From: Alternaria dauci
Lineage: Eukaryota > Ascomycota > Dothideomycetes > Pleosporales > Pleosporaceae
Direction of reading: 5' to 3'
DNA length: 64,000 bases
Assembly: GCF_042100115.1 (NCBI RefSeq)
Contig: NC_091272.1
Span: 6,988,284 to 7,052,283 of the forward strand
Position 1 is the stretch's first letter. Each line of letters starts with the position of its first letter. The translations under genes were made by a program, and so were the position numbers. Under the pieces are notes generated by a model, which had not been told where the DNA came from, did no database searches, and was given only the letters and a program-made list of their open reading frames with translations. Of the stretch, positions 1 to 64,000 are shown in pieces.

Positions 1-134
1 AGCACCGTGTTCCGAATCGCATTCTTGTTGAAGTCCTGTCCCTGGTCTAGCTCGTATTTCAGTGCAGTAGGTGGCTGTACCGCCGAGAGCTTATATACCC
101 TATAGGCTGCAGCTAGAGCCTGTATCGCATCCAT
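1..134 (-). pseudogene. 5' part of a frameshifted unknown gene (unit 1 copy, cut by window edge)
   Basis: The ATG on the minus strand is at 134-132 and the reading frame runs out of the window. The sequence is identical to the beginning of the copy at 24990-25409, where the description is given. Confidence 0.5.
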
Positions 135-184
135 GTCTGACTTTTCGGCGTAAGCCGTCGTACAAAACTATGTCATTAGATCAC

Positions 185-592
185 GATATGGCTTGGGAAG
201 CAAGTTGCCGCAACGGTTGGTTGCTAGCGAGGGCACGTTGCGAAGCGGTTGCGATATGGCTTGGGACGCAAGTTGCCGCAACGGTTGGTTGCTAGCGAGG
301 GCACGTTGCGAAGCGGTTGCGATATGGCTTGGGACGCAAGTTGCCGCAACGGTTGGTTGCTAGCGAGGGCACGTTGCGAAGCGGTTGCGATATGGCTTGG
401 GACGCAAGTTGCCGCAACGGTTGGTTGCTAGCGAGGGCACGTTGCGAAGCGGTTGCGATATGGCTTGGGACGCAAGTTGCCGCAACGGTTGGTTGCTAGC
501 GAGGGCACGTTGCGAAGCGGTTGCGATATGGCTTGGGACGCAAGTTGCCGCAACGGTTGGTTGCTAGCGAGGGCACATTGCGAAGCGGTTGC
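185..592. repeat. 68-bp minisatellite, 6 copies (unit 1)
   Basis: Six head-to-tail 68-bp units each start GATATGGCTTGGGA and contain GCAAGTTGCCGCAAC. They are virtually identical; the last carries CACATTGC in place of CACGTTGC, and the first has GGGAAGC for GGGACGC. The array lies about 50 bp upstream of the start of the broken minus-strand gene and 3' of the SNF2 helicase gene. The short ORFs across it simply reflect a period that is not a multiple of three. Confidence 0.95.
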
Positions 593-909
593 GAAGCATG
601 GAGTAGTATTTAGTGTGGTAGGTTGCATTCGGCCTGACTCGGAAGACCACGCGCCCGCAAGTCAGGCTGACAGCAGCGCTTCCACTCACAACGTTACCTA
701 GGTACAGCAGTAACTTGCTATTGCTAACAGAGGCAACTTTCTAGGCTTCCTACAGTGGCAGCAGTAGGCAATACGTACAGCGTTACTCTATGTTAGTCTG
801 GTGCGCCTATATCGGTACTGAGTCATGGGATCGATTTTGTACTACAGACTACTTGAGAAAGTTACAGTATGTCTCCGCGATTTCCGGGCAGTCATTCCTT
901 CAAAGTATC
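593..909. other. Spacer between 68-bp array and SNF2 helicase 3' end
   Basis: No gene is seen in these 317 bases. They must hold the 3' UTR and polyadenylation region of the minus-strand SNF2 helicase gene. The same spacer lies at 25868-26184 and 51072-51388; the unit 3 copy carries a C to T change at 51297. Confidence 0.6.
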
Positions 910-3900
910 TCAGTCTTGCGCCTTTATCGTGCTCTGAAAATAGCCTTTAGCTTGGAGGTTCTTGACTATCCTCATGTCAATGGTGTCTCGGCATCCTTGA
1001 GGGGCAGTAGTTGTCAGCCATTCAACGAAGACTTCGGCGAACCTCGTATTAATGCGATGTTGGCGTTTCGCAGCCTGTTCAGCAATATGCGCGTTACTCT
1101 GAGGCTCAAGACCATGCAAGATGTTGCCCTCTGTAAGCGATATTGACTGACACATCGCGCCCGTTGCACCCACGAGAATATAGACGCCATCGTCGACCTT
1201 GCCGCCCCCCTCATCCCAGACCTTCTTCCACTTGGGTACTTCCTTGTCCCGTGTCACGGCGTTGTAGGCATGAACAACGTGTTTCTCTCCAAACGTTTGG
1301 CAGATGTAAGCGTAGATCAGAGCACGTGACAATGTCGAGCTCGCGAGTACGACGTACTTGGCTCTGTACTCTAGGGTTTCTCCTTGGTGTGCGCGAGGAC
1401 GGGGATGGGGAATGGTCGTCTTCTTGTTGCGTAGCTCTTCCAACGTCTTGTGAATGTATGCGACCTTGGCTGAGCCCTTGCAAGCCTCCAATGCAATGTC
1501 CCAGATGAATGAGTGTCGAATTGTGTCGCTGTTCACAAGAGCTGTGCGGAGGTTTTCGTTGTTATTACTGAGACTGCGGTGAGGGTCGAGGATCCGATCT
1601 CCGATAAGCTGGTCGGCATCCCAATTGTTGATTGCGGCCATAAGGTTAGGAAAGATGCTGACATGTCGCGCAATGCGGTAGGCCTCGGAGTCTGCGACTG
1701 CGCCTGGGGGCATGGTGGGCTTGGACTTCTTGCTGCTCTCTCCCCCTTGGTCTTCCCAGGCCTCCACTTCCTTCTCGTAATGCTGTTTGACCGCGGCTAG
1801 CACGCGAGACTCTTCTTGTTCCACGTTAGCGAAGTAACACGCATCGTGCTGCAGATACGTGAAGTTGACAGTAAGCTTTGCTGTGACAACGTTGAGGGGT
1901 TTGCGCCAGGGATCCAGACTGTCGGTGTCGCGCATTATGAAACACCACCGAACCATGTCCCGAAAATTGTTCAGCATGTCCTTGATCTCGCCGGACTGGA
2001 GTTGCTTGTCGAGCGCGGACTGTACTTTGTTCTTTTCCTTCTCGGTTTTACAACGCTGCATCCCGTCGTGATACTTCTTGTAGCTATTGAGGAGCTTTCT
2101 CCACACTGCAGTACAATCTACCCCTTTCAAATTGGCTAAAGCTTTGGCGCCTGGATCGGTGGACTGCTTTTGTACTAACCGCTGGATCACGTGGTCGGCG
2201 AATCCTAACACCAGGTCGACCCCGTTCGTGAGAGCTGTGCCCGTCTGACCTACTATACCAGTACGATGATCATTGGGCCTGTAGTCCAAAATGGGGTCGA
2301 TGATGTGGGTGTAGGTTTGAGTTTTTGTACCCGGGGCGGTATGCAGCTCGTCGACCATGATTATTGCAGCGCAACCAACGAATGTGACCAACCACACCTC
2401 GACCCTCACACCTTTGTCGTCTGTCCATATTTGCATGCGACGAGCCTGCCAAGGGCCGAGACCATCAAGCGCAGGCAATCGTGAAGTGTCCATATGCGTC
2501 TTGGCGCACAGGCTCAGCTGTGCTCTCAACGCCGCCCTCTTCTTAGTATGCCTCTTGTCGGTCTTTTCTAACTGTTGTTTTAGCCTCTTGTACTGAGGGG
2601 GCGCAGAGGTATCGACAAGCGTGCCAAAGATCTTCGTCTTCCAAGACTCGCGAGTTGAGACTATCAAGAACCTAACGCTCGTCTTTTGAGGTCTGAAGTC
2701 CGATGTCTCAGGGACGCTGTTTGCCCATTCCTTAGTCGGGTTGTTCAACTTCCACACCTTGTTGTACTCCCCATAGGCCAATCGTGATTTCAACCAGTTA
2801 GGGCGACGGTTGACTTCATCCCACTCTTTTGGTGTCATGCTAGAGTAGATGCTGTTCTTCGCACCGCCATAACGCTGTACAATCTCTTCGCCCGTACCGT
2901 GCAAGACTATCAGCTTCGGTGGCTTGTACTCTGATCCTTGAGCCAAGTGGGCGCTGCCACCCATGATCATACGCCATGCTTGTACCAATGTTTCAAGGCC
3001 TGCTGCACTCGCAACAAAGTAGGTGCATCCAAACAGATTCGGCGTCTCTATCTCGTCTCCGTTCGATTTGAGAGCAGTGTAGGGGAAGTCTGGCGTCGCG
3101 CTGATGCCGAGGCGCTGGTACGATCTAGCAAAATTGAGATACCATATGAGGACATCGGTGATCGTCTTGCCCATGCCCATGTCGTCGGCGATGACAAGTG
3201 CTCCTCGGTCGCCGGCGAGGACATCCAAGCCATCCTTGGCGCCGACCAACTGATGGGGTAGCGGGTGGAAATCTGGGTTTAAGCCGACCCCAGTTCCGAG
3301 GTTGATCTGGTCGCCTTTGAGGTCGTCGAGCGCAAGGCCGAAGGTTTGCGCGGCTAAGTCCCACAAGTCTATGTTCGACTTTTGCGCGTGCGCAAAAGCA
3401 GACATACCATCCATCTTCACCTTCATAGTGCTCGAGAAATGCGCGTTTGCCTGGGTCTTAGCTTGTTCGTTCAATGGGGGTTGTTCCGGTTCGCCTTCGT
3501 CTAACATGCATTCTTCTAGCACCTCTTCATCGTCTACGAGAATGTCCATGTTGTTACTAGACTCGCTGTCACTAGAATCGCTGCTACCACTATCGTCGCT
3601 GATATGTATTGGGTCGTCTAGTCCGCTACCGTGGTAGCTATTAGAAGGGAAGGTCTCGACAAACTTGAGAAAGGACTTAGGTGCGCTGGACGGTGGTTTG
3701 GCAGGTCTGGCGAGCGGTAGCAGATTCACGGGTGTGAACGACGAGGGTTGAAGTGTGCGGGGGAAGGCGATGCTGTTATTCCTGGACATGTATGACGAGA
3801 ACGGACCTACAGGATGCTGCTTGTGTGCGCTGTTGCTAGGTGTGGATTCTTCCCTCGACCAGGATAATGGATGTATGTTGGCCGCCAAATCTAGTATCTC

Positions 3901-5415
3901 CTTGAGTGTCTTGGGTGTAAGCTCCTTACTTTCCGGTGGGACGGCTTCGGAGGAGGCAACTTGCATGTGGGTGGCATCTTGTTGCTGGTCACCTTGCACC
4001 TCTGCTGGCGGGGCGGGCTCGGAGGAGGCAACTTGCATGTGGGTGGCATCTTGTTGCTGACCATCTTGCACCTCTGCTGGCGGGGCGGGCTCGGAGGAGG
4101 CAACTTGCATGTGGGTGGCATCTTGTTGCTGGTCACCTTGCACCTCTGCTGGCGGGGCGGGCTCGGAGGAGGCAACTTGCATGTGGGTGGCATCTTGTTG
4201 CTGACCATCTTGCACCTCTGCTGGCGGGGCGGGCTCGGAGGAGGCAACTTGCATGTGGGTGGCATCTTGTTGCTGGTCACCTTGCACCTCTGCTGGCGGG
4301 GCGGGCTCGGAGGAGGCAACTTGCATGTGGGTGGCATCTTGTTGCTGACCATCTTGCACCTCTGCTGGCGGGGCGGGCTCGGAGGAGGCAACTTGCATGT
4401 GGGTGGCATCTTGTTGCTGGTCACCTTGCACCTCTGCTGGCGGGGCGGGCTCGGAGGAGGCAACTTGCATGTGGGTGGCATCTTGTTGCTGACCATCTTG
4501 CACCTCTGCTGGCGGGACGACTTTGGAGGAGGCAACTTGCGTGTCGGTTACGTTCAATCTAACCGTCGTGACAAACACTACGGCTGTGCCAGCTGGGATT
4601 TCTCGCATAGCAAAGTTGAATCCACCTTGGCTTCCAATTCCGATATGCTGATTTGCTCTTGGAGCGATAAACAAGCGGCCCTTGAAGTCGAATCCATCGA
4701 GTCCTAGGCCTTGCGCAGTTTCGTAGCATTGCTCAGCTTCGTCGCGTAGTTTTTCCCAGTTGGGGATGCCCTCCCAACATATGTCACTGAATTCGACCAT
4801 GCTGACTACTTCGCTGATCTCTCCATCCTTTACGGCGCATATATGTACCTGTGTGTCGAGATTTGAAGCGGTTGGCATGGGAGGATTAGCAGGCTTGTCG
4901 TTGTTCGGAGTAGGCGTGAATCCTGTAGGAACGGTTCTGGATCGAGAGCGCTTAGGTGGGTGGTCTTTGGAGTTGTGCGTTGATTCTGGCGATAACTCGC
5001 GCTTTTGGAGTGTAGAGGTTGCCGTCAAGGGGTTGGGGGTTGGGGCTTTAGCATGGTCGCCTTCCGCTTTACGCTTCCTCAGGCGATTGAGAGAATGTGT
5101 GATCAACTTGCTAATCGCCATTGTCCTCCACGCCTTGGGTTCGTTGCGGAAGTCGGGTACGGACTTCCAGACCAGGGCGTGTAGGTTCTTGTTCAGGTCT
5201 TCATTGGCAGTGTCGCTGAGCTTTGCTGCACCTCGATTGCGTGCATCGGGGTAGTTGTCCACAAGAATCTTGTCAATCGTCCTGGCTATCTCCTTTTGTC
5301 TGGTGGCGTCGTCGATGCCGAAGCCGCGGAAGATCTCTGTTTGGTTCCCCGAGTAGCTAAGGGAGCTGGGGTCGCCTGCCGGTGGATGGGCGGGTGACTG
5401 CGTGTTATCGTCCAT
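910..5415 (-). CDS. SNF2-family DEAD/H-type helicase (unit 1)
   Basis: Predicted 1501-aa nuclear SF2/SNF2-type ATPase, intron-less as read. Numbering from the ATG at 5415: the Walker A motif DDMGMGKT has its lysine at about residue 750; the Walker B motif is DELH at 1022-1025 (VDELH); motif III is GQTGTALTN near 1056; the C-terminal lobe has GAMCQSISLTEGN (motif V) and QAAKRQHRIN near 1447 (motif VI, the RxxR region). Residues about 297-488 are eight tandem 24-aa repeats, followed by a serine/aspartate-rich acidic stretch. The frame is open 171 codons further upstream without a good ATG. That extension is hydrophobic and unlike a helicase, so I chose MDDNTQSPAH as the start. The gene is divergent from the SF1 helicase gene, with about 1.1 kb of shared promoter. 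SNF2 proteins move along double-stranded DNA or remodel chromatin; a role at the telomere is inferred from position. It is not RecQ, unlike known fungal telomere-linked helicases. Confidence 0.85.
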   Translation of the reverse strand: MDDNTQSPAHPPAGDPSSLSYSGNQTEIFRGFGIDDATRQKEIARTIDKILVDNYPDARNRGAAKLSDTANEDLNKNLHALVWKSVPDFRNEPKAWRTMAISKLITHSLNRLRKRKAEGDHAKAPTPNPLTATSTLQKRELSPESTHNSKDHPPKRSRSRTVPTGFTPTPNNDKPANPPMPTASNLDTQVHICAVKDGEISEVVSMVEFSDICWEGIPNWEKLRDEAEQCYETAQGLGLDGFDFKGRLFIAPRANQHIGIGSQGGFNFAMREIPAGTAVVFVTTVRLNVTDTQVASSKVVPPAEVQDGQQQDATHMQVASSEPAPPAEVQGDQQQDATHMQVASSEPAPPAEVQDGQQQDATHMQVASSEPAPPAEVQGDQQQDATHMQVASSEPAPPAEVQDGQQQDATHMQVASSEPAPPAEVQGDQQQDATHMQVASSEPAPPAEVQDGQQQDATHMQVASSEPAPPAEVQGDQQQDATHMQVASSEAVPPESKELTPKTLKEILDLAANIHPLSWSREESTPSNSAHKQHPVGPFSSYMSRNNSIAFPRTLQPSSFTPVNLLPLARPAKPPSSAPKSFLKFVETFPSNSYHGSGLDDPIHISDDSGSSDSSDSESSNNMDILVDDEEVLEECMLDEGEPEQPPLNEQAKTQANAHFSSTMKVKMDGMSAFAHAQKSNIDLWDLAAQTFGLALDDLKGDQINLGTGVGLNPDFHPLPHQLVGAKDGLDVLAGDRGALVIADDMGMGKTITDVLIWYLNFARSYQRLGISATPDFPYTALKSNGDEIETPNLFGCTYFVASAAGLETLVQAWRMIMGGSAHLAQGSEYKPPKLIVLHGTGEEIVQRYGGAKNSIYSSMTPKEWDEVNRRPNWLKSRLAYGEYNKVWKLNNPTKEWANSVPETSDFRPQKTSVRFLIVSTRESWKTKIFGTLVDTSAPPQYKRLKQQLEKTDKRHTKKRAALRAQLSLCAKTHMDTSRLPALDGLGPWQARRMQIWTDDKGVRVEVWLVTFVGCAAIIMVDELHTAPGTKTQTYTHIIDPILDYRPNDHRTGIVGQTGTALTNGVDLVLGFADHVIQRLVQKQSTDPGAKALANLKGVDCTAVWRKLLNSYKKYHDGMQRCKTEKEKNKVQSALDKQLQSGEIKDMLNNFRDMVRWCFIMRDTDSLDPWRKPLNVVTAKLTVNFTYLQHDACYFANVEQEESRVLAAVKQHYEKEVEAWEDQGGESSKKSKPTMPPGAVADSEAYRIARHVSIFPNLMAAINNWDADQLIGDRILDPHRSLSNNNENLRTALVNSDTIRHSFIWDIALEACKGSAKVAYIHKTLEELRNKKTTIPHPRPRAHQGETLEYRAKYVVLASSTLSRALIYAYICQTFGEKHVVHAYNAVTRDKEVPKWKKVWDEGGGKVDDGVYILVGATGAMCQSISLTEGNILHGLEPQSNAHIAEQAAKRQHRINTRFAEVFVEWLTTTAPQGCRDTIDMRIVKNLQAKGYFQSTIKAQD
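3951..4526 (-). repeat. In-frame 72-bp VNTR inside the SNF2 gene, 8 copies (unit 1)
   Basis: There are eight 72-bp units. Each encodes 24 residues beginning QQQDATHMQVASSEPAPPAE, and the DG and GD versions alternate, so the higher-order period is 144 bp. The repeat is rich in Q, A, P and E and probably unstructured. It lies before the ATPase core, so changes in length should leave catalysis intact. The antisense ORFs here are shadows of the repeat. Confidence 0.95.
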
Positions 5416-5747
5416 CCTAGTCACCCGTGGTAGAAGGTGTATGCAGGTTGACGATGCTGCGGTACGTGGTGGGTGGGTGGTGTTGCGGCGAGCGTCGCAA
5501 CGTTCGTGTTGTGGCAACATGCGCGAGGAAACAGCCGGAGAGCGGTGAAAAGTGAAAGGGGAAGCTCCCAGTAATTTTAGCCTCGTCGCCCGTACTGAGC
5601 CTAGTAGAACGATGACCAGGAGTAGGGCATAGTATAGCCACCCGGTTCTGGCGTGAGCGCTCACTGTTGAGCATTGCGGGTACAGCGCACAAGACTCTGA
5701 CGCGGGCTCACGTTGCGTACGCGCGAAACAGAGAAAGTTGATAAAAG

Positions 5748-6156
5748 ATATGGGGATCACCCGAGTGTATAGAAAGCGAGCAGAGGGAGAAGAGAGACAA
5801 GGAGCAGGGAAAGTAGGGAGAGACATGGGGATCACCCAAACGCAGTTCTGGCCGTCATCGTGAACTGAATCGAGCATAGAAGTTGATAGAACCAAACAAA
5901 AGAAAGCGAAAAGAGATATGGGGATCACCCAGCCGTAGGACTAACTGTAGTCGCGAAGGAGAGAGCCAAGACGTAGCCGGCTACACGCTGCGCATTGCTG
6001 TGGCCTTGACGCTCGCTAGATCTCCCATTCACCTTGGCATGTCCTCGCTTATTTGTATGGCCGGTCCGATAGTTATCTTCCTATTGCCCAAAGGTCGACT
6101 GGCTGTCCACTTCTGTCTCTTGGTACCAACTTGTAGAACTCGGGTGATCCCCATAT
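5748..6156. promoter_or_regulatory. Four copies of ATATGGGGATCACCC in the divergent promoter (unit 1)
   Basis: Direct copies lie at 5748-5762, 5823-5837 (ACATGGGG variant) and 5916-5930. An inverted copy (GGGTGATCCCCATAT) lies at 6142-6156. Four conserved 15-mers in one intergenic region suggest binding sites for a regulator acting on both genes, possibly one encoded by the element. No known factor was matched. Confidence 0.6.
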
Positions 6157-6415
6157 CCTCTTCGCGTCCCTATCGTTCTCCATCCAATCCTTCTTTTCAC
6201 GTGTCTTTATCTTGCTCCTCGCTTCCTCACGCACAACCCAAGGTGAGCAACGCAAAATTTGCTTGGCGTTAGCGTCTCTCGCGCTCGCGCTACCTAGTCC
6301 TGCACAAATAACACTTTCCTCCACACCAACTACTTGACACCTTCCCCGAATTGCTTCTCTTGAAAGCAAACCACTCTCAACGTCGATATCTCTACCTACC
6401 CATTGACCCTTGTCG

Positions 6416-6475
6416 GTAAGTTGTTGTGGCCTCCTGTTCCGCTGATCGATTGCTAACGATGTGCTGTCCGTATAG
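6416..6475 (+). other. Predicted 60-bp intron in the 5' UTR of the SF1 helicase gene (unit 1)
   Basis: The donor is GTAAGT, there is a TGCTAACG branch site, and the acceptor is TATAG, all at normal fungal spacing, 50 bp before the ATG. Copies are at 31691-31750 and 56607-56666. Confidence 0.7.
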
Positions 6476-6525
6476 AAACAAAGTCTCACCTACCGTTGAA
6501 ACTCTGTTTTTGCATATCGTCCAGC

Positions 6526-9500
6526 ATGGCCGACCAGTCTGTCATGCACTACATGGTCAATGACCGGCCGACGTCGGCGCCGCATGATACAGAAGTCTAC
6601 GACCAGGGCATTGCTGTCTTGGAGGCACCCGGCAAAGACTCTGTCCAGCTCGGAGGCCTTCCCGACGCCCCTGACCGAGAGAAGCACGCCTGCTTCACCT
6701 GCAAAGAACCAGGCCACAGGGCCAAAGATTGCCCCAAGAAGCTCGAACAGCAAGCGTGTTCCAACTGCGGCGAGGTTGGCCATGTCTACCGCGACTGTCC
6801 CACGAACGAGTGCTTCAACTGCGGTGGTCACGGGCACCTCTCCAAGCAATGCCCTAGTGAGCCAGCAGCAGACCAGGGCCCTAGGTGCAACGGCTGTAAC
6901 CGTCTCGGCCACGTTGCCTCGGATTGCTTCTATCCCCAGCCGATCAAAACCCGCAAGTTTCGTGCTCCTAAGGAGGACGCCTCCAAGGAGGACGTCTCCA
7001 AGGAGGACGTCTCCAAGGATGGCAAAGACGAGCTTCCTCCTGCCCAAACCATGGCCCCACCACTGGATAAACCTAGCTTCACAACAAAGTTATTCACTCG
7101 GAAGATCCCTCACTATGTCTCCTCCGTTAGTGTAGAGATGGATATTTCCTATCCGAGCGACGACGCTAGTATCACCCTCCGTGGCCACGCTCATCGGGCA
7201 GCCTCCATTACCCTGACAGCCCACAACATCGTCAACTGCACTGTACTTCCCATGAAGATCACCGATGAGTTCTTCACCTCAAGGGTTTCCCAAGAAGATG
7301 TTAAGCGAGCTGCTAGTAAGCTTGCACTCAGCGAACTAGGGATGCTCCTACACTTCCGCTTCGACCTCCAAACCGAACAACCTGACGGACAACCTCTGAA
7401 CTCCCGCCCCCTCTACGGATTGGGGTTCTTCTCCCACCAGAACTTTGGGATCTTCGATGAAGTCATCCATCGTGCTCGCGATATCCTCGAGAATGGCGGC
7501 GAGGGCACCGTGCTGCACTTCTTCACGGTCGCCACAGAGTCAGCACAAGAGCGCATGGATACCGTGTACAAAGAGATGCAAGCTCAATACAAGAACGACC
7601 CGATTCTGCTCTACTGGAAGGACTGTCGTGTCAACCCTCAGACTGGCATGGAGATCTCTGTCGACAAGCAGCCGAAAGGATTCAAGGTCCCTCCCCAGTG
7701 GGCATTCCAGAACAACACACAGTACGTCACCGTGCACTACCAGAACCTTGTCCACGAACTGCGCAAGGCCGCCAAGCAGAAGGGTTTCGAGATCACCGAC
7801 ACCAAGATTATGAAGGTTCGCGGCGGCGGTGACCGGTTATACTACGCCGAGCTCAGGGTACCAGAGGGCGCCAGCTACCGCGAGGGCGCCTTCGTGGACA
7901 TCCAGTTCAGTCCCTACCAGGAGCAAGCGGACACCTGGCGATTTGAGATCAAACCGTCCGCAGGCATCACGCCCGCTAGCTACATAGGCGGCTTTCTCTA
8001 CCGCCCTCGCTTGGGTGCATCCTTCGCCGAGCAGCCCCTGTTCAAGGAGGGCGTTCACTACAGCTGTGCATTTAACTATCGTACTTTGCCTGAAGCTGAA
8101 GAGGCATTGCGTAAGCTTCGCGGCATCTACGTCTTTGCTCGCTTGAACCCTGCCACCGTGGGAATCAAGCGCCAGATCAACGCCCTTAACCATTACTTCC
8201 GAGGCGGCGATGCCTTTAGCGATGTCACTCAAATCCTCCACAACTCCTACCTTCGCTTCCCAGACGACAAGATCGTGGACTACTTCGCCGGCATGTTCGC
8301 GTATTTGGGAGACAACGGTGCTAAGGACAGCATCATGGAGCGTCTGAACCGCTCACTCCAACCCGACGTTTTGCAGAAGCTTCGCGCCCTTGCCGGTGGT
8401 GTAGCGCTCATCCAAGGTCCTGGTGGCGTTGGCAAGACACGCATCATCGAGGCTCTGGCTGTTGCGCACTACGAGGCTCAACAAACTGGCGTTATCCATG
8501 GCCTTGGTCGCCTTGCTGCTTTCTGGGTCACGTCGCCGTTGAACAAGCAGCTCGACGACGCTATGCTCAGGATCTACACGGCCTGCCTAGAGCGACGGAA
8601 GGAGCTCAAGGCCGCTGGCATCCAGGCACGTTTCCCTATCGTAATCCGACGCCATATGAAAGAGACGGAGACAGCGGTTGTTCGCAAGGAGTCCGAAGCT
8701 GCTCGCAACGTCCTGCTAAAGAACGAGAAGCCGCCCTACTTTGAATACATCGAAGAAGAGCACTTCACCAAGGACCAGCTGAAAGAGCAGGCAGCGGCTT
8801 ACCAGGAGAAGTCCAGTGAAGACAGGCGGACCATGGCGTTCCTTGACGCACTGACAGTGGACTCGCAATTCCGCATCCTTCTTGAGACGTCCGAGACAAA
8901 GTCGTCTTTCACCGACAAGCGACTTCAGTTGGAAATGCTGTCGGAGGGTGCGTGGGTTCTGCGCCTCGCCGGAGTGCCGGAGCGTAATGCCGATACGAAC
9001 GAGTTAGTGGTACACGAAATCGCCCAACCAAAAAAGTACCGCGATTTCCGTTTTCAGCTCGACCTCTATGCTTCAGGCCAAGAATTCGACGCCGATGACA
9101 TGCGCCGACTGACTGCTCTCACCAACGAGATCATTAGGGACCTCGCTCAACTGGCCGTAGCCATTGGCATGACCTCCGACGTAATCTCGCAGCCGCGTAC
9201 TCATACGCTCGAGCAGCCGTATGCCGTTCATCACGACGAGGCTGGCAAGTCAAGCGAGTCAAGCACGCTCGCTCCTCTCGTGTACACGCACGCCTATAAT
9301 AACGAGGGCCCGCTGATGGTCGAGCGCAAGGCCATAACACCCCACCTGTTCTTCGGCGATATCCATCAGCCAAAGCCTTCTGCTGCCGGTGGTTCGGAGG
9401 AACGTCACGTCTTCAGTGATCAGCAGGACCTACCTTTCTTCCATCGTGCGATGCTAGGCGGCTGTACCACTATTTACCTGCACACACAGTACCGCTTCAA

Positions 9501-11052: not shown

Positions 11053-11606
11053 AAAGGTTCTAGAGACGCTGGAGGTGATTTGGAGATCAAGGAAGACAAG
11101 CCTCCCAGTAGGATAGTGTGGGACTAGGCTAATATCGATCTCTTCTTGTTCTTTGAAAGCCAGTACGTAGTAATGAAGAGAAGTAGTAGAGTAAGAGTTT
11201 ATGCGCTTACTCTATTCCTCTTAAAGTGATAATACACTGTATCAAAATAATAAACGTGCTGGTAAAAGACGCAAGCACAACACTGTTGAAAGACACTGTA
11301 ATAAATCGCGGTAAAGGTGTGTTTCCTAAACACCTTGAGTTCACCGTATGCAGCTGTATATGTTTGACAATAGATGGGTTGGAAGTAAAGCCCTGAACTT
11401 CAAGCGGTTCTGGAGAGTTGCGGCTACGTTGGGGAGAAGAGGAGTTAAGGCAGAAGAGGATTTTGGAGGAGAAGTAATAATATACTGTATGTAGAACTTA
11501 TACGGGTGTATAAAGCTGTAATATGTAGTATAGTAAGGTACAATAGGTGGTACAATAGTTGGTAATATGTACTATAGTATGTTGTATTATACATTACGAT
11601 ATATCA
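11053..11606. other. 3' flank of the SF1 helicase gene
   Basis: No gene is seen. The stretch becomes AT-richer towards the 22-bp array and includes the hairpin-like AGGTGTGTTTCCTAAACACC at about 11316-11335, a possible 3' UTR or terminator structure. Copies are at 36328-36881 and 61037-61590. Confidence 0.5.
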
Positions 11607-14242: not shown

Positions 14243-14270
14243 ACTATAGAGGTAAACAGTATAACTAGCA

Positions 14271-54300: not shown

Positions 54301-55606
54301 TGTGTGCGCTGTTGCTAGGTGTGGATTCTTCCCTCGACCAGGATAATGGATGTATGTTGGCCGCCAAATCTAGTATCTCCTTGAGTGTCTTGGGTGTAAG
54401 CTCCTTACTTTCCGGTGGGACGGCTTCGGAGGAGGCAACTTGCATGTGGGTGGCATCTTGTTGCTGGTCACCTTGCACCTCTGCTGGCGGGGCGGGCTCG
54501 GAGGAGGCAACTTGCATGTGGGTGGCATCTTGTTGCTGACCATCTTGCACCTCTGCTGGCGGGGCGGGCTCGGAGGAGGCAACTTGCATGTGGGTGGCAT
54601 CTTGTTGCTGGTCACCTTGCACCTCTGCTGGCGGGGCGGGCTCGGAGGAGGCAACTTGCATGTGGGTGGCATCTTGTTGCTGACCATCTTGCACCTCTGC
54701 TGGCGGGACGACTTTGGAGGAGGCAACTTGCGTGTCGGTTACGTTCAATCTAACCGTCGTGACAAACACTACGGCTGTGCCAGCTGGGATTTCTCGCATA
54801 GCAAAGTTGAATCCACCTTGGCTTCCAATTCCGATATGCTGATTTGCTCTTGGAGCGATAAACAAGCGGCCCTTGAAGTCGAATCCATCGAGTCCTAGGC
54901 CTTGCGCAGTTTCGTAGCATTGCTCAGCTTCGTCGCGTAGTTTTTCCCAGTTGGGGATGCCCTCCTAACATATGTCACTGAATTCGACCATGCTGACTAC
55001 TTCGCTGATCTCTCCATCCTTTACGGCGCATATATGTACCTGTGTGTCGAGATTTGAAGCGGTTGGCATGGGAGGATTAGCAGGCTTGTCGTTGTTCGGA
55101 GTAGGCGTGAATCCTGTAGGAACGGTTCTGGATCGAGAGCGCTTAGGTGGGTGGTCTTTGGAGTTGTGCGTTGATTCTGGCGATAACTCGCGCTTTTGGA
55201 GTGTAGAGGTTGCCGTCAAGGGGTTGGGGGTTGGGGCTTTAGCATGGTCGCCTTCCGCTTTACGCTTCCTCAGGCGATTGAGAGAATGTGTGATCAACTT
55301 GCTAATCGCCATTGTCCTCCACGCCTTGGGTTCGTTGCGGAAGTCGGGTACGGACTTCCAGACCAGGGCGTGTAGGTTCTTGTTCAGGTCTTCATTGGCA
55401 GTGTCGCTGAGCTTTGCTGCACCTCGATTGCGTGCATCGGGGTAGTTGTCCACAAGAATCTTGTCAATCGTCCTGGCTATCTCCTTTTGTCTGGTGGCGT
55501 CGTCGATGCCGAAGCCGCGGAAGATCTCTGTTTGGTTCCCCGAGTAGCTAAGGGAGCTGGGGTCGCCTGCCGGTGGATGGGCGGGTGACTGCGTGTTATC
55601 GTCCAT
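51389..55606 (-). pseudogene. SNF2-family helicase broken by a premature stop (unit 3)
   Basis: Same gene as 910-5415, but a C to T change at 54966 turns a tryptophan codon (residue 214 from the ATG at 55606) into TAG. The stop lies before the ATPase core, whose frame stays open to the normal end at 51389. The repeat region has four 24-aa units instead of eight. The change is CpA to TpA on the plus strand, the RIP type. A shorter product from an internal start could still carry the whole helicase core, but nothing shows that it is made. Confidence 0.8.
54430..54717 (-). repeat. 72-bp VNTR in the SNF2 gene, 4 copies (unit 3)
   Basis: Two of the four 144-bp DG/GD pairs are missing compared with units 1 and 2; the frame is unaffected. 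Confidence 0.95.
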
Positions 55607-56716
55607 CCTAGTCACCCGTGGTAGAAGGTGTATGCAGGTTGACGATGCTGCGGTACGTGGTGGGTGGGTGGTGTTGCGGCGAGCGTCGCAACGTTCGTGT
55701 TGTGGCAACATGCGCGAGGAAACAGCCGGAGAGCGGTGAAAAGTGAAAGGGGAAGCTCCCAGTAATTTTAGCCTCGTCGCCCGTACTGAGCCTAGTAGAA
55801 CGATGACCAGGAGTAGGGCATAGTATAGCCACCCGGTTCTGGCGTGAGCGCTCACTGTTGAGCATTGCGGGTACAGCGCACAAGACTCTGACGCGGGCTC
55901 ACGTTGCGTACGCGCGAAACAGAGAAAGTTGATAAAAGATATGGGGATCACCCGAGTGTATAGAAAGCGAGCAGAGGGAGAAGAGAGACAAGGAGCAGGG
56001 AAAGTAGGGAGAGACATGGGGATCACCCAAACGCAGTTCTGGCCGTCATCGTGAACTGAATCGAGCATAGAAGTTGATAGAACCAAACAAAAGAAAGCGA
56101 AAAGAGATATGGGGATCACCCAGCCGTAGGACTAACTGTAGTCGCGAAGGAGAGAGCCAAGACGTAGCCGGCTACACGCTGCGCATTGCTGTGGCCTTGA
56201 CGCTCGCTAGATCTCCCATTCACCTTGGCATGTCCTCGCTTATTTGTATGGCCGGTCCGATAGTTATCTTCCTATTGCCCAAAGGTCGACTGGCTGTCCA
56301 CTTCTGTCTCTTGGTACCAACTTGTAGAACTCGGGTGATCCCCATATCCTCTTCGCGTCCCTATCGTTCTCCATCCAATCCTTCTTTTCACGTGTCTTTA
56401 TCTTGCTCCTCGCTTCCTCACGCACAACCCAAGGTGAGCAACGCAAAATTTGCTTGGCGTTAGCGTCTCTCGCGCTCGCGCTACCTAGTCCTGCACAAAT
56501 AACACTTTCCTCCACACCAACTACTTGACACCTTCCCCGAATTGCTTCTCTTGAAAGCAAACCACTCTCAACGTCGATATCTCTACCTACCCATTGACCC
56601 TTGTCGGTAAGTTGTTGTGGCCTCCTGTTCCGCTGATCGATTGCTAACGATGTGCTGTCCGTATAGAAACAAAGTCTCACCTACCGTTGAAACTCTGTTT
56701 TTGCATATCGTCCAGC
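55607..56716. promoter_or_regulatory. Divergent helicase promoter (unit 3)
   Basis: Copy of 5416-6525. The 15-bp motifs are at 55939-55953, 56014-56028, 56107-56121 and, inverted, 56333-56347. The 5' UTR intron is at 56607-56666. Confidence 0.7.
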
Positions 56717-59700
56717 ATGGCCGACCAGTCTGTCATGCACTACATGGTCAATGACCGGCCGACGTCGGCGCCGCATGATACAGAAGTCTACGACCAGGGC
56801 ATTGCTGTCTTGGAGGCACCCGGCAAAGACTCTGTCCAGCTCGGAGGCCTTCCCGACGCCCCTGACCGAGAGAAGCACGCCTGCTTCACCTGCAAAGAAC
56901 CAGGCCACAGGGCCAAAGATTGCCCCAAGAAGCTCGAACAGCAAGCGTGTTCCAACTGCGGCGAGGTTGGCCATGTCTACCGCGACTGTCCCACGAACGA
57001 GTGCTTCAACTGCGGTGGTCACGGGCACCTCTCCAAGCAATGCCCTAGTGAGCCAGCAGCAGACCAGGGCCCTAGGTGCAACGGCTGTAACCGTCTCGGC
57101 CACGTTGCCTCGGATTGCTTCTATCCCCAGCCGATCAAAACCCGCAAGTTTCGTGCTCCTAAGGAGGACGCCTCCAAGGAGGACGTCTCCAAGGAGGACG
57201 TCTCCAAGGATGGCAAAGACGAGCTTCCTCCTGCCCAAACCATGGCCCCACCACTGGATAAACCTAGCTTCACAACAAAGTTATTCACTCGGAAGATCCC
57301 TCACTATGTCTCCTCCGTTAGTGTAGAGATGGATATTTCCTATCCGAGCGACGACGCTAGTATCACCCTCCGTGGCCACGCTCATCGGGCAGCCTCCATT
57401 ACCCTGACAGCCCACAACATCGTCAACTGCACTGTACTTCCCATGAAGATCACCGATGAGTTCTTCACCTCAAGGGTTTCCCAAGAAGATGTTAAGCGAG
57501 CTGCTAGTAAGCTTGCACTCAGCGAACTAGGGATGCTCCTACACTTCCGCTTCGACCTCCAAACCGAACAACCTGACGGACAACCTCTGAACTCCCGCCC
57601 CCTCTACGGATTGGGGTTCTTCTCCCACCAGAACTTTGGGATCTTCGATGAAGTCATCCATCGTGCTCGCGATATCCTCGAGAATGGCGGCGAGGGCACC
57701 GTGCTGCACTTCTTCACGGTCGCCACAGAGTCAGCACAAGAGCGCATGGATACCGTGTACAAAGAGATGCAAGCTCAATACAAGAACGACCCGATTCTGC
57801 TCTACTGGAAGGACTGTCGTGTCAACCCTCAGACTGGCATGGAGATCTCTGTCGACAAGCAGCCGAAAGGATTCAAGGTCCCTCCCCAGTGGGCATTCCA
57901 GAACAACACACAGTACGTCACCGTGCACTACCAGAACCTTGTCCACGAACTGCGCAAGGCCGCCAAGCAGAAGGGTTTCGAGATCACCGACACCAAGATT
58001 ATGAAGGTTCGCGGCGGCGGTGACCGGTTATACTACGCCGAGCTCAGGGTACCAGAGGGCGCCAGCTACCGCGAGGGCGCCTTCGTGGACATCCAGTTCA
58101 GTCCCTACCAGGAGCAAGCGGACACCTGGCGATTTGAGATCAAACCGTCCGCAGGCATCACGCCCGCTAGCTACATAGGCGGCTTTCTCTACCGCCCTCG
58201 CTTGGGTGCATCCTTCGCCGAGCAGCCCCTGTTCAAGGAGGGCGTTCACTACAGCTGTGCATTTAACTATCGTACTTTGCCTGAAGCTGAAGAGGCATTG
58301 CGTAAGCTTCGCGGCATCTACGTCTTTGCTCGCTTGAACCCTGCCACCGTGGGAATCAAGCGCCAGATCAACGCCCTTAACCATTACTTCCGAGGCGGCG
58401 ATGCCTTTAGCGATGTCACTCAAATCCTCCACAACTCCTACCTTCGCTTCCCAGACGACAAGATCGTGGACTACTTCGCCGGCATGTTCGCGTATTTGGG
58501 AGACAACGGTGCTAAGGACAGCATCATGGAGCGTCTGAACCGCTCACTCCAACCCGACGTTTTGCAGAAGCTTCGCGCCCTTGCCGGTGGTGTAGCGCTC
58601 ATCCAAGGTCCTGGTGGCGTTGGCAAGACACGCATCATCGAGGCTCTGGCTGTTGCGCACTACGAGGCTCAACAAACTGGCGTTATCCATGGCCTTGGTC
58701 GCCTTGCTGCTTTCTGGGTCACGTCGCCGTTGAACAAGCAGCTCGACGACGCTATGCTCAGGATCTACACGGCCTGCCTAGAGCGACGGAAGGAGCTCAA
58801 GGCCGCTGGCATCCAGGCACGTTTCCCTATCGTAATCCGACGCCATATGAAAGAGACGGAGACAGCGGTTGTTCGCAAGGAGTCCGAAGCTGCTCGCAAC
58901 GTCCTGCTAAAGAACGAGAAGCCGCCCTACTTTGAATACATCGAAGAAGAGCACTTCACCAAGGACCAGCTGAAAGAGCAGGCAGCGGCTTACCAGGAGA
59001 AGTCCAGTGAAGACAGGCGGACCATGGCGTTCCTTGACGCACTGACAGTGGACTCGCAATTCCGCATCCTTCTTGAGACGTCCGAGACAAAGTCGTCTTT
59101 CACCGACAAGCGACTTCAGTTGGAAATGCTGTCGGAGGGTGCGTGGGTTCTGCGCCTCGCCGGAGTGCCGGAGCGTAATGCCGATACGAACGAGTTAGTG
59201 GTACACGAAATCGCCCAACCAAAAAAGTACCGCGATTTCCGTTTTCAGCTCGACCTCTATGCTTCAGGCCAAGAATTCGACGCCGATGACATGCGCCGAC
59301 TGACTGCTCTCACCAACGAGATCATTAGGGACCTCGCTCAACTGGCCGTAGCCATTGGCATGACCTCCGACGTAATCTCGCAGCCGCGTACTCATACGCT
59401 CGAGCAGCCGTATGCCGTTCATCACGACGAGGCTGGCAAGTCAAGCGAGTCAAGCACGCTCGCTCCTCTCGTGTACACGCACGCCTATAATAACGAGGGC
59501 CCGCTGATGGTCGAGCGCAAGGCCATAACACCCCACCTGTTCTTCGGCGATATCCATCAGCCAAAGCCTTCTGCTGCCGGTGGTTCGGAGGAACGTCACG
59601 TCTTCAGTGATCAGCAGGACCTACCTTTCTTCCATCGTGCGATGCTAGGCGGCTGTACCACTATTTACCTGCACACACAGTACCGCTTCAATTCCGACAT

Positions 59701-61036
59701 CAACGCTCTCACCAACCACATCCTTCCTCGTGGCCGTATGGAAGTGGCCCCCGGGGTAGATGACCGGGAAGAAAACATTCGCGCCATGGAGATCGCGATG
59801 GAGCAGTTCAACATTTCCTCCGGCCATCGCGTCATCTTCGTCAGCGTCAAAGGTAGCCACGACATCGTCGGTGCCACCAAGTCTCGCTACAACAAGGACT
59901 TCATTCCCTATACCCTCCGGGCCGTCTGCAAGATGATCGCTGGCGGGTTTTCTGGTAAGCAGGTCGCTATCATCACCCCGTATGTAGCGCAAGTTGCCGC
60001 TATCCGCTTCGTATTGGCTAGATTCATGGAGCACTTAGCCAATCAGGTTGACGAGGAGGAGCTGTTCAAACTTAGCGTCCAGCTGCGAGACGTCGAAGTC
60101 TTCACAGTCGACAAAATGCAGGGCGCCGAGAAGGAAGGTATTGTATTCGACACCACCAACGCTGGCGACCTCGGTTTCGTCAAGCATACCACACGAATGC
60201 TCCTAGCCGTTGGACGCGCGCGTTCCCTCCTCGTTATCGTTGGTAATCCTGTGAGCGTCCTCGCCGAATACACTGGTGCGACCGACAAGGACAAGCGGTA
60301 CGTCAAGCTCGCCTACTACAAGGTTTGGAAATGGTGCCTAGACCGAAAATCCGCCATCCAATTGCACGTTGATCCAGAATTGGCTCAAGGTTGGTGCGAG
60401 TTCAACCCCCCGTTCAATGTCGCCGAGCATATAGAGGCCTTCGCTGCGGGCTCTCAGGCCACTGAAGAGCCCATAAAGATGTTTCCCGATGCCAACTACG
60501 GACCTCTCCCCACATTTTCCACAGCCTCCCCCGTCGACGGTGATGGAATTGATTTCTATTCCGGTGGAGATGACTGGAATCGGGATGACGCCAAGGACAA
60601 GCCAAATGATGATGGGATTCCTTTCTATTCCGGTGGAGATGACTGGAATCGGGATGACGCCAAGGACAAGCCAGAGGGTGAGGATCACGCCGACGATGGT
60701 GGAGACGAAGCCAAGGACAAGCCAGAGGGTGAGGATCACGCCGACGATGGTGGAGACGAAGCCAAGGACAAGCCAGAGGGTGAGGATCACGCCGACGATG
60801 GTGGAGACGAAGCCAAGGACAAGCCAGAGGGTGAGGATCATGCCGACGATGGTGGAGACGAAGCCAAGGACAAGCCAGAGGGTGAGGATCACGCCGACGA
60901 TGGTGGAGACGAAGCCAAGGACAAGCCAGAGGGTGAGGATCACGCTGACGATGATGAGGATCACGCCGGCAATGATGAGGGTCACGGTGGAGATCAGTGC
61001 AGCAACGTAGCACACGACTGGAACCAGTACGATTGA
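56717..61036 (+). CDS. UPF1-like SF1 helicase with zinc knuckles (unit 3)
   Basis: Predicted 1439 aa, 69 residues shorter than the other two copies because three of five 23-aa tail repeats are missing. The knuckles and helicase motifs are intact. It has TpG at 60382 and 60545, where units 1 and 2 have TpA. This is the last gene before the telomere, about 2.8 kb away, and its frame is open, so it may be the functional copy of this unit while its SNF2 partner is broken. Confidence 0.88.
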   Translation: MADQSVMHYMVNDRPTSAPHDTEVYDQGIAVLEAPGKDSVQLGGLPDAPDREKHACFTCKEPGHRAKDCPKKLEQQACSNCGEVGHVYRDCPTNECFNCGGHGHLSKQCPSEPAADQGPRCNGCNRLGHVASDCFYPQPIKTRKFRAPKEDASKEDVSKEDVSKDGKDELPPAQTMAPPLDKPSFTTKLFTRKIPHYVSSVSVEMDISYPSDDASITLRGHAHRAASITLTAHNIVNCTVLPMKITDEFFTSRVSQEDVKRAASKLALSELGMLLHFRFDLQTEQPDGQPLNSRPLYGLGFFSHQNFGIFDEVIHRARDILENGGEGTVLHFFTVATESAQERMDTVYKEMQAQYKNDPILLYWKDCRVNPQTGMEISVDKQPKGFKVPPQWAFQNNTQYVTVHYQNLVHELRKAAKQKGFEITDTKIMKVRGGGDRLYYAELRVPEGASYREGAFVDIQFSPYQEQADTWRFEIKPSAGITPASYIGGFLYRPRLGASFAEQPLFKEGVHYSCAFNYRTLPEAEEALRKLRGIYVFARLNPATVGIKRQINALNHYFRGGDAFSDVTQILHNSYLRFPDDKIVDYFAGMFAYLGDNGAKDSIMERLNRSLQPDVLQKLRALAGGVALIQGPGGVGKTRIIEALAVAHYEAQQTGVIHGLGRLAAFWVTSPLNKQLDDAMLRIYTACLERRKELKAAGIQARFPIVIRRHMKETETAVVRKESEAARNVLLKNEKPPYFEYIEEEHFTKDQLKEQAAAYQEKSSEDRRTMAFLDALTVDSQFRILLETSETKSSFTDKRLQLEMLSEGAWVLRLAGVPERNADTNELVVHEIAQPKKYRDFRFQLDLYASGQEFDADDMRRLTALTNEIIRDLAQLAVAIGMTSDVISQPRTHTLEQPYAVHHDEAGKSSESSTLAPLVYTHAYNNEGPLMVERKAITPHLFFGDIHQPKPSAAGGSEERHVFSDQQDLPFFHRAMLGGCTTIYLHTQYRFNSDINALTNHILPRGRMEVAPGVDDREENIRAMEIAMEQFNISSGHRVIFVSVKGSHDIVGATKSRYNKDFIPYTLRAVCKMIAGGFSGKQVAIITPYVAQVAAIRFVLARFMEHLANQVDEEELFKLSVQLRDVEVFTVDKMQGAEKEGIVFDTTNAGDLGFVKHTTRMLLAVGRARSLLVIVGNPVSVLAEYTGATDKDKRYVKLAYYKVWKWCLDRKSAIQLHVDPELAQGWCEFNPPFNVAEHIEAFAAGSQATEEPIKMFPDANYGPLPTFSTASPVDGDGIDFYSGGDDWNRDDAKDKPNDDGIPFYSGGDDWNRDDAKDKPEGEDHADDGGDEAKDKPEGEDHADDGGDEAKDKPEGEDHADDGGDEAKDKPEGEDHADDGGDEAKDKPEGEDHADDGGDEAKDKPEGEDHADDDEDHAGNDEGHGGDQCSNVAHDWNQYD
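60554..60958 (+). repeat. 69-bp (2 copies) and 51-bp VNTRs in the SF1 helicase tail (unit 3)
   Basis: Two 69-bp units remain, against five in units 1 and 2; the number of 51-bp units is unchanged. Confidence 0.95.
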
Positions 61037-61590
61037 AAAGGTTCTAGAGACGCTGGAGGTGATTTGGAGATCAAGGAAGACAAGCCTCCCAGTAGGATAG
61101 TGTGGGACTAGGCTAATATCGATCTCTTCTTGTTCTTTGAAAGCCAGTACGTAGTAATGAAGAGAAGTAGTAGAGTAAGAGTTTATGCGCTTACTCTATT
61201 CCTCTTAAAGTGATAATACACTGTATCAAAATAATAAACGTGCTGGTAAAAGACGCAAGCACAACACTGTTGAAAGACACTGTAATAAATCGCGGTAAAG
61301 GTGTGTTTCCTAAACACCTTGAGTTCACCGTATGCAGCTGTATATGTTTGACAATAGATGGGTTGGAAGTAAAGCCCTGAACTTCAAGCGGTTCTGGAGA
61401 GTTGCGGCTACGTTGGGGAGAAGAGGAGTTAAGGCAGAAGAGGATTTTGGAGGAGAAGTAATAATATACTGTATGTAGAACTTATACGGGTGTATAAAGC
61501 TGTAATATGTAGTATAGTAAGGTACAATAGGTGGTACAATAGTTGGTAATATGTACTATAGTATGTTGTATTATACATTACGATATATCA

Positions 61591-61850
61591 CGGTTGATGT
61601 TGCAGCAAGTTGAGGTTCATGTTGCAGCAAGTTGCGGTTGATGTTGCAGTAAGTTGCGGTTCATGTTATAGTAAGTTGCGGTTAATATTGCAGTAAGTTG
61701 CGGTTGATGTTGCCGTAAGTTAAGGTTGATGTTATAGTAAGTTAAGGTTTATGTTACAGTAAGTTACAGTTTATATTATAGTAAGTTAAGGTTTATATTA
61801 TAGTAAGTTAAGGTTTATATTATAGTAAGTTAAGGTTTATATTATAGTAA
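61591..61850. repeat. 22-bp minisatellite with RIP gradient, about 12 copies (unit 3)
   Basis: It is 462 bp (21 units) shorter than in units 1 and 2, but keeps both the GC-rich left end and the fully mutated right end. The loss was internal. Confidence 0.95.
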
Positions 61851-63285
61851 CTTTTAATAAATATTAAAGTTAGTATTACCTAATCTTTTAAAAATTTATA
61901 TATCTATTAGTATAAATAGTTAGTAATCCTTTTACTATATCTTTAAAAAATATACTTTCTACTAAATATATTTATAATAATTAATTTTTTTCTTTCTTAT
62001 TTATTATTTAATAATATTACTATAGAAGTAATAAAACTAGACTACTTTTACTTTATAATAATAAAGTAATAAATAAAGAAAAAGTATAAAATAAAGCTAG
62101 TTAAATTAAATTTTATTTAAATAAGTAGAATAATAAATACTAAAGTAAGAATAAAGTTATTAAGTATTTAATTAAGTAATAAGTAAAGATAGTTTAAAGC
62201 TATATTAACTAAATACTAGTTACTACTAAGTAAGACTTTCTTATATTATCTTTATAAAAGAAATTTATACTACTATATATAAAACTTAAATAAAGATTAA
62301 GAATTTATAAAGTTTTACTATAATTAAGAAACCTTTTAAAAAAAGTTATTTATTTTACTTAACTAAGGGTAAGTATATAGTATATAGTAATATATTAAAT
62401 AAGATTTTTTTACTTTTTTATTTATCTATATTCTTATATAAAGGTTTACTTAGATTTAATAACTTTTAACTACTTTATAAAAAGAAGAAAAGAGTATAAC
62501 TTATATTTAAGATAAAGATATTTATAAAGTAAAAGAATAAAATATTTAATACTTTAAAATAAAAAATATTTTATAAAAATTTAGTATTTTTTCTTTAAGA
62601 AAAAAAAGTATAATAAAGTATTAGTAACTACTAAGTATAGTTATTTAAAAAATAAGAAGTAGTTTTTTATAATTTATTATTTTATAATAACTAGTTACTT
62701 CTAATTAACTTACTATATAATAAGCTAAAGCCTAATTAGTTTATTCCTTAATAGGATCTTAGTTATATATATAAAGTATACTACTTATAGAATCTAAGTA
62801 GTAAGTAGTTTACTTAGATTCTATACTAGTAAACTAAATAAATAATACTCTAAGCTACTACTTCCTAAATAACTTTTAAACTATAGCTTTCCTTAACTTC
62901 TTTTCTTATTTAATATAATAATAGTATACTTATATAATAGCTCCTTAAGTATAGCCTTTTATATACTACTTCTAACTATATAGCTATTTTTAATTAAGTA
63001 AACTAGTAGAAAGAAATAATTTTAAAAGTAGTATTTATTAAAAGTTAATAAAAGATTTAAGGTAAAAATAAATTTTTTTTTATTTTATTTAAAAAAAGAG
63101 TTTTTAAGTATTTTAAGTAATAGTTAGTATAGTTTTTTAAATCCTTTATTACTAATAGTAAGATTTATTTCTAAAGTATATAGTTTTATTATTTATATTA
63201 CTATATAGCTAATAATATTATAAGAATAAAATAAATATAAACTTTACTACTATTTTACTTTAACTTTAATATAAATTAATCTTAA
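61851..63285. other. RIP-saturated AT-rich block (unit 3)
   Basis: Copy of 12329-13763 with very few differences (for example TATAGTAAT for TATATTAAT near 62385, and AATATAATAA for AATAAAATAA near 62914). No CA, TG or CG was seen from 61768 to 63847. Confidence 0.9.
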
Positions 63286-63848
63286 AAGCCTTAAGTAACT
63301 AAGAAGCCCTAAATAACTAAGAAGCCTTAAGTAACTAAGAAGCCCTAAGTAACTAAGAAGCCCTAAGTAACTAAGAAGCCCTAAGTAACTAAGAAGCCCT
63401 AAATAACTAAGAAGCCCTAAATAACTAAGAAGCCCTAAGTAACTAAGAAGCCCTAAGTAACTAAGAAGCCCTAAATAACTAAGAAGCCCTAAGTAACTAA
63501 GAAGCCCTAAGTAACTAAGAAGCCCTAAGTAACTAAGAAGCCCTAAATAACTAAGAAGCCCTAAATAACTAAGAAGCCCTAAGTAACTAAGAAGCCCTAA
63601 GTAACTAAGAAGCCCTAAATAACTAAGAAGCCCTAAATAACTAAGAAGCCCTAAGTAACTAAGAAGCCCTAAGTAACTAAGAAGCCTTAAGTAACTAAGA
63701 AGCCCTAAATAACTAAGAAGCCCTAAGTAACTAAGAAGCCCTAAATAACTAAGAAGCCCTAAATAACTAAGAAGCCCTAAGTAACTAAGAAGCCCTAAGT
63801 AACTAAGAAGCCTTAAGTAACTAAGAAGCCCTAAATAACTAAGAAGCT
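63286..63848. repeat. 18-bp satellite containing CCCTAA, about 31 copies, next to the telomere (unit 3)
   Basis: The same monomer as in units 1 and 2 but a different order of variants and about four to five more copies. It is the array that carries the telomere, joined through CTGTAACCG. Confidence 0.95.
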
Positions 63849-63855
63849 GTAACCG

Positions 63856-64000
63856 TTAGGGTTAGGGTTAGGGTTAGGGTTAGGGTTAGGGTTAGGGTTA
63901 GGGTTAGGGTTAGGGTTAGGGTTAGGGTTAGGGTTAGGGTTAGGGTTAGGGTTAGGGTTAGGGTTAGGGTTAGGGTTAGGGTTAGGGTTAGGGTTAGGGT
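63856..64000 (+). repeat. Telomere, (TTAGGG)n at the right chromosome end
   Basis: About 24 perfect TTAGGG repeats run to the last base of the window, with the G-rich strand 5' to 3' towards the end, as expected for a right-hand telomere. They follow the 18-bp satellite through a short unique linker (CTGTAACCG). TTAGGG is the usual telomere repeat of filamentous ascomycetes. The total length cannot be judged because the window stops here. Confidence 0.98.

Follow-up and report, generated by a model that had tools for sequence, protein, structure and literature searches.

A 25-kb multi-gene unit at the chromosome ends of Alternaria dauci is a likely new kind of mobile element

Elements that attach to telomeres are known chiefly as retroelements (HeT-A/TART, Terminons) or as repeats spread by recombination (Y'). 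The Y' elements of yeast adjoin telomeres, code for a helicase and occur in tandem, with telomere repeats between the tandem copies. Starships have a DUF3435 tyrosine recombinase, the captain, and carry DUF3723 (d37) genes. Terminons are described as giant multi-gene units of up to 40 kb, built on Athena Penelope-like elements at the telomeres of bdelloid rotifers (PMC6431247). Here we analyse a stretch of 64,000 bases from Alternaria dauci (the window), which closes contig C1 (7,052,283 bases) on its right side, in a genome of 34.9 Mb and ten contigs. The window carries a 25-kb multi-gene unit in tandem, and comparison with all other contig ends suggests that this unit is probably a telomere-terminal mobile element, added serially and inner tip first onto ends without a telomere. 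All results are based on one assembly of one A. dauci strain.

The first-pass annotation of the window claimed a tandem unit of near-identical copies that ends in telomere repeats. This is confirmed: the period is 25.27 kb (25,275 and 25,272 bp), the identity is 99.95% (99.946% between 25276-51073 and 1-25801), and TTAGGG repeats close the last unit at the right end of C1, running to base 64000. From the inner to the outer side, the unit consists of the tip ATACTATAGAGG, a 34-bp GC-rich array and the genes A(+), B(+), C(-), D(-) and E(+). A 22-bp array, an AT-rich stretch and an 18-bp array follow outward of E, and the chromosome end adds CTGTAACCG and telomere repeats. The window contains three copies each of D and E and two each of A, B and C; the reading frame of the third copy of D is interrupted.

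The genes were placed by translated searches of the whole genome. Ends are named by contig and side (C8L is the left end of C8), and j gives the number of a tandem joint at an end. The co-occurrence of the members at chromosome ends, offered as a check by the first-pass annotation, is borne out in the A. dauci genome: genes A-D are present at 19 of the 20 contig ends, the scored list places gene E at 18 of them, with C2R missing, and no intact copy is found away from contig ends. Gene A is found in 36 whole copies, one fragment (at C9L) and two decayed relics, gene B in 36 copies, gene C in 34 whole copies and two cut by contig ends, and gene D in 34 copies, 33 of them whole. The number of E copies is a lower bound, with 31 scored copies among 45 candidates and 14 unscored. 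The only match to A-E that is not terminal is a short one to B at C5:2795912-2796028 (59% across 39 residues), which may be a chromosomal relative. Each occupied end has one to six units (six at C4L), all complete units share one orientation, and the arrays at C2R, C5R and C6R are cut by the contig end. Summed from inner tip to end, they occupy ~0.88 Mb, or 2.5% of the genome. The right end of C7 is the sole end without the element; a 5.8S rRNA-like match lies 32 kb from it in sequence resembling the product of repeat-induced point mutation (RIP) (C7:2725102-2725255).

The inner terminus is exact. A whole-genome search with its 21 bases, allowing up to three mismatches, gives 42 matches, 37 of them exact, and the reversed-pattern control gives one. 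All 42 lie within 156 kb of an end, where a random site would fall with a probability of 0.089. They comprise 19 innermost units and 17 tandem joints, equal in sum to the 36 units identified from gene A, as well as three short restarts of 114, 236 and 600 bp, and three relics. The same first base opens all of these units, restarts and relics, although they are attached to many different sequences: 31 of the 39 junctions compared are distinct in their last 25 nucleotides, the three relic junctions being read separately. The flanks of 14 of the 19 ends were aligned to the unit with tolerance for C-to-T change, and a clear older, cut-back unit is found only in the C5R flank. The junctions at C2L and C10R have an extra ATACT ahead of the tip; at C2L the related C3R allele accounts for the extra bases as pairing in another register.

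The outer terminus is exact as well. It is found at 18 places on 15 ends, adjoins TTAGGG at all 11 ends read and is absent from all 17 tandem joints; at C2L it has a shortened form. Every one of the 17 buried units is cut back within its last 1.1 kb (62750-63762 on the map of the terminal unit) and is followed by the exact tip of the next unit. The cut-back point lies in the 18-bp array in nine joints and in the AT-rich stretch in the others, namely at C2R, at C8R, at C4L, and at one common point in three joints of C3R and two of C5R. Telomere repeats are not present in the 125 bases ahead of any of the 17 joints. At C3L and C6L the telomere tract is broken by short pieces of the 18-bp array that end in CTGTAACCG, after which TTAGGG resumes; recombination at the tip may produce these interruptions. 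The exact termini and the one-way attachment are findings beyond the first-pass annotation. That annotation called the element self-maintaining, which does not follow from these data: they show an element with precise boundaries whose copies are joined to chromosome ends in a single orientation.

The DNA that preceded joining can be read for 12 junction types, either from an intact unit or from a related flank elsewhere (86-100% alike in the matched part), since related flanks on other chromosomes serve as inferred empty sites. In all 12 types the first bases of the lost DNA are those of the tip; the shared run is ATA in eight types and AT in two, with one type each sharing ATAC and ATACTAT. 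The match to ATACTATAG is thus at least two nucleotides in 12 of 12 types and at least three in 10 of 12. The highest local chance is 0.134 for two and 0.089 for three nucleotides, giving P values of 3.3e-11 and 1.8e-9 respectively. Joint 3 of C3R reads ATAGTATAGAGG, in which the G of the chromosomal side is kept, as would result if priming had started from a longer 3' end with a mismatch; this is a single case. A 3-bp target duplication was considered and rejected, because the inferred lost DNA is ATT at C2L and at one C4L joint, so that the third A is supplied by the element.

The first-pass annotation also named two helicases of a non-RecQ type, and both are recovered. Gene E matches Pfam AAA_12 at 3.7e-27, over the cut-off of the model, UPF1 chains in PDB at 6.9e-10, and the IGHMBP2 family at 1e-16, yet under the cut-off of that model. 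Four CX2CX4HX4C knuckles are seen by eye in its translation, and three stretches pass the domain scan; E is therefore predicted to encode a UPF1-like SF1 helicase with CCHC knuckles. None of the 5267 candidates in a protein-database search with E passed. Gene D alone matches Pfam SNF2 weakly (0.093), a phage DNA-helicase family of PHROG at 8.5e-8 and ZorD SWI2/SNF2 of PADLOC at 9e-4, and nothing in PDB. Both D and E match helicase components of other systems in PADLOC and PHROG, and these matches serve here only as support for the term helicase. A three-sequence profile of D and two homologues (30 and 32% identity), which themselves have no Pfam match, matches FUN30 at 5.6e-5, RAD54 at 0.017, HELLS at 0.093 and Snf2 at 0.36. 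This similarity to SNF2-family profiles and the motifs DDMGMGKT, VDELH and GQTGTAL, read by eye, suggest that D encodes an SNF2-like protein. The E frame varies in length between copies, and arrays of 72-bp, 69-bp and 51-bp repeats lie within the D and E coding frames (3947-4548 and 10362-10969).

A gene with the ParB-like label of the first-pass annotation, gene A, is present, but the label is weak: ParB likeness is not proven, as it comes from a by-eye reading of the motif ELITGHHRVEAF and from a sub-threshold match to DUF3723 (0.028). At E 0.001, a database search with gene B recovers a family of at least 194 proteins; two come from A. dauci itself, and Fusarium, Metarhizium and Coniosporium are among the other sources. 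The B frame is split in the window copies (667 + 297 amino acids) and single, with 894 or 901 amino acids, in 33 of 36 copies. A Pfam scan of 30 B homologues gives no common family, and the B profile has no match in PDB. Gene C has no match in Pfam or the other family, defence-system and phage libraries scanned, and IMG/VR scans with E, D and B give no match. Single-sequence AlphaFold models of B (667 amino acids) and C (620 amino acids) have a mean predicted local distance difference test (pLDDT) score of 38 and 36 and are unusable. Coordinates are listed in Table 1.

Table 1. Positions of the unit, its termini, repeat arrays and genes in the window
Feature	Position	Strand	Remark
Complete internal unit, from the inner tip through the shortened 18-bp array	14241..39512	+	25,272 bp
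Outer part of the preceding unit	1..14240	+	without outer terminus
Terminal unit	39513..63855	+	with both termini
Inner terminus ATACTATAGAGGTAAACAGTA	14241..14261	+	unit start; 42 genome matches, 37 exact
Inner terminus of terminal unit	39513..39533	+	
Outer terminus AACTAAGAAGCTGTAACCG	63837..63855	+	18 places, 15 ends
TTAGGG telomere repeats	63856..64000	+	chromosome end
34-bp GC-rich repeat array	14277..14860; 39549..40132		directly inside inner tip
18-bp array AAGCCCTAAGTAACTAAG	13764..14240; 39036..39512; 63286..63847		outer side
AT-rich stretch	12000..13763		RIP-like composition, in the window's units
Gene A	14943..17309; copy 40215..42581	+	several frames; weak DUF3723/ParB-like
Gene B	17345..21087; second copy 25,272 bp further	+	large fungal family
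Gene C	22127..23986; copy 47399..49258	-	620 aa
Gene D	910..5940; copies 26185..31215, 51389..56131	-	predicted SNF2-like helicase/translocase; last frame interrupted N-terminal to helicase core
Gene E	6457..11052; copies 31732..36327, 56648..61036	+	predicted CCHC knuckles and UPF1-like SF1 helicase

An inner end that is exact while the DNA it joins varies, with base identity at the joints, suggests that the donor end is fixed and the acceptor flexible. Every buried unit has lost its outer end whereas exposed ends keep it, which suggests that erosion precedes the next round of addition. In the mechanism that probably accounts for this pattern, a chromosome end would lose its telomere and erode until a 3' end closing in ..AT or ..ATA anneals to the complementary strand of the tip (..CTATAGTAT-3'). 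The annealed 3' end would be extended outward by copying the element to the end of the donor, and telomerase would then keep the new end capped. A TERT domain is present at C8:1169027-1169472, so that telomere repeats can be added after copying. Homologous exchange between ends would multiply and homogenise the units, and RIP would decay copies left behind. The donor strand is predicted to be DNA: a site-specific nick would free it at the tip, the SNF2-like and UPF1-like helicases of the element would unwind it, and the CCHC knuckles of E would hold single-stranded DNA; in that case no reverse transcriptase would be needed. A DNA template is favoured because the unit has two helicases and no reverse transcriptase is found in it, but the template, DNA or RNA, and the initiating enzyme are unproven. 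We consider it possible, with somewhat less than even confidence, that the element represents a new class of terminus-only transposons without a reverse transcriptase, in which helicases peel off an exact-ended DNA strand and a worn end captures it through 2-7 letters and copies it to the tip.

Several observations weigh against serial addition. The 18-bp array type, which accounts for nine of the 17 internal joints, counts as a match only where the repeat that was lost carried ATA, the variant with GTA giving 0 nucleotides; without this type, 11 of 11 types match by at least two and nine of 11 by at least three nucleotides. The C10L and C1R flanks score above shuffles against the unit (82 versus 58 and 85 versus 63), but below the threshold. 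Flanks are related between C2L, C3R and C8R, between C8L and C9L, and between C9L and C10L (the C1L flank, with only 23 bases, being excluded from this comparison), which indicates that segmental duplication also acts. C2L and C8R use the same site in a different register, and the two events may not be independent. No nuclease, polymerase or recombinase is recognised in the unit, and B and C could hide one. The assembly is a further limit, with two apparent misjoins (C3 and C4) and one inverted fragment (C9L).

At C3:3325556-3325700, internal telomere repeats are followed by ~119 kb, AT-rich at its start, up to 3445196, and at C4:3421431-3421543 telomere repeats are followed by ~21 kb of other sequence; both are probably assembly joins. 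Outside the outer terminus of C9L (3236-3254), C9:1-3000 holds part of the unit in inverted orientation, covering the 34-bp array and gene A and showing indel-like differences; this part is either an assembly artefact or a real inverted addition. Assembly duplication as the whole story is rejected in view of the many different junctions, the shared single-nucleotide haplotypes and the relics.

The best-surviving alternative, unlikely in our judgement but a serious rival, is a retrotransposon-like addition as in rotifer Terminons, in which an RNA ending in ..CUAUAGUAU-3' would pair with ..ATA-3' and be reverse-transcribed outward. An exact inner end, a variable outer loss, abortive short restarts and pairing of 2-7 nucleotides are what priming of reverse transcription on chromosome ends is expected to give, and the three restarts, which support addition to ends, are thus also in keeping with reverse transcription. 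C and D would be sense in such an RNA and are single open frames in intact copies, whereas A and B, on the opposite strand, are split; E, however, also antisense to the RNA, is a single open frame as well. A template of 25 kb with genes on both strands likewise argues against this route. The reverse transcriptase would then lie unrecognised in B or C, or be provided in trans by telomerase or a retroelement of the genome, which has 112 RVT_1 matches in addition to TERT. None of these 112 matches lies inside the element intervals, however, and the unit frames scanned have no RVT match, although B or C might encode a very divergent reverse transcriptase. An Rfam scan of 28.6 kb of the window (11000-39600) at E 1 gives no match, and hence no hammerhead.

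Spread solely by homologous recombination and break-induced replication, as for Y', is less probable still. The copies are nearly identical across ends: comparison of a 5.3-kb core among 30 E copies at 17 ends, out of the 31 scored, gives eight substitutions in total (with copy L038 compared over 3.3 kb only). Three linked substitutions are common to C3R, C8R, C10L and C6L, which indicates that copies or segments move between chromosomes. The 125 bases ahead of C3R j2 and j3 are the same, in the same order, as those ahead of C5R j1 and j2, although the variants of the following tip differ, and some flanks are related between ends. Recombination alone is strained, however, by the 31 distinct junctions, by the same inner base on flanks that have no clear homology to the unit in 13 of 14 tested and are mostly unrelated to one another, and by the lack of telomere repeats ahead of the tandem joints. 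Homologous recombination explains the sameness and the shared stretches but not the founding joints, and addition to eroded ends is therefore favoured. Capture of linear, telomere-bearing extrachromosomal copies at broken ends by microhomology-mediated end joining would account for one exact end, one telomeric end and a homology of 2-7 nucleotides, but is very improbable, as it requires an independent linear form with an exact end and does not by itself explain the restarts of 114-600 bp. Insertion into telomere repeats is rejected, because the inner flanks are not telomeric.

The units differ in age. With the majority base taken as ancestral, all eight substitutions in the E copies change C to T ahead of A, which is the RIP pattern; a deletion of 15 bases is present in four E copies, and a gap of two bases in L038. 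Decayed copies lie inward of intact ones. C8L has an older unit start at 50,948 and a gene A relic with 18 stops, C3R has a unit start at 3,193,722 and a gene A relic with nine stops, C5R has an inward cut-back start, and C1L has a mutated start at 55,756. The RIP index of the AT-rich outer stretch is 0.00 over one kilobase, a composition suggesting that a decayed segment apparently became part of the spreading unit; it seems that the element went through RIP before it last spread.

The element is likely a new kind of mobile element, which would spread by being copied onto worn chromosome ends. It shows addition to ends that is serial and oriented, with no reverse transcriptase recognised, and its fungal host has a telomerase gene. 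If the proposed mechanism is true, it represents a separate route of rebuilding chromosome ends, in which a mobile element could be useful to its host, and the arrays are a readable record of past telomere loss. If the reading as a transposon without reverse transcriptase is true, the element would be a DNA-based system that repairs broken telomeres and spreads by doing so. Gene B opens a large unnamed fungal protein family to study.

Among the best-ranked matches listed from the open-licence papers searched, some of the searches being aimed at related topics, no description of this element is found, and an A. dauci genome paper reports a fragmented assembly and, in the portion available, does not use the word 'telomere' (PMC9114375). 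The view of the first-pass annotation that the unit matches no known class holds with respect to Y' elements, telomere-linked RecQ helicase genes and known telomeric retrotransposons. Starships are distinguished by the captain: no DUF3435 tyrosine recombinase is found in the larger frames, those scanned. For DUF3723, the other Starship trait, gene A has a match below the cut-off. MoTeR and FoTeR are likewise telomere-confined mobile elements with truncated copies, FoTeR also being decayed by RIP, but they are non-long-terminal-repeat retrotransposons, 4.3-7.3 kb long in FoTeR, and use telomere repeats as insertion sites (PMC8381367, PMC12857005), whereas the A. dauci unit has no reverse transcriptase found in it and no telomeric inner flanks. 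Fungal telomere-linked helicase genes also lie at many ends, but belong to the RecQ family (PMC7473861, PMC11893274), whereas the helicases predicted for the A. dauci unit are SNF2-like and UPF1-like and form part of a multi-gene element with defined boundaries. The A. dauci unit resembles Y' in being a subtelomeric tandem repeat that codes for a helicase, but the helicase is of another type and the tandem joints have no telomere repeats. The closest fungal case found in print is that of the Colletotrichum higginsianum elements, which are long, helicase-bearing terminal repeats in one orientation between the telomere and unique sequence (PMC5576322). They differ in being single copies of 11.3-18.5 kb with a RecQ-like helicase with DUF3505 and in having fragments elsewhere in the genome, and the portion of that paper available gives no exact inner terminus, arrays or serial addition (PMC5576322). 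Terminons have a reverse transcriptase and a hammerhead and pair with telomeric G-repeats, whereas in the A. dauci unit neither is found and the joints are at non-telomeric AT or ATA (PMC6431247). Like the A. dauci unit, however, they are large, multi-gene, head-to-tail units with one defined end attached through short base pairing and the other side cut back (PMC6431247), and among known systems they appear to work most alike.

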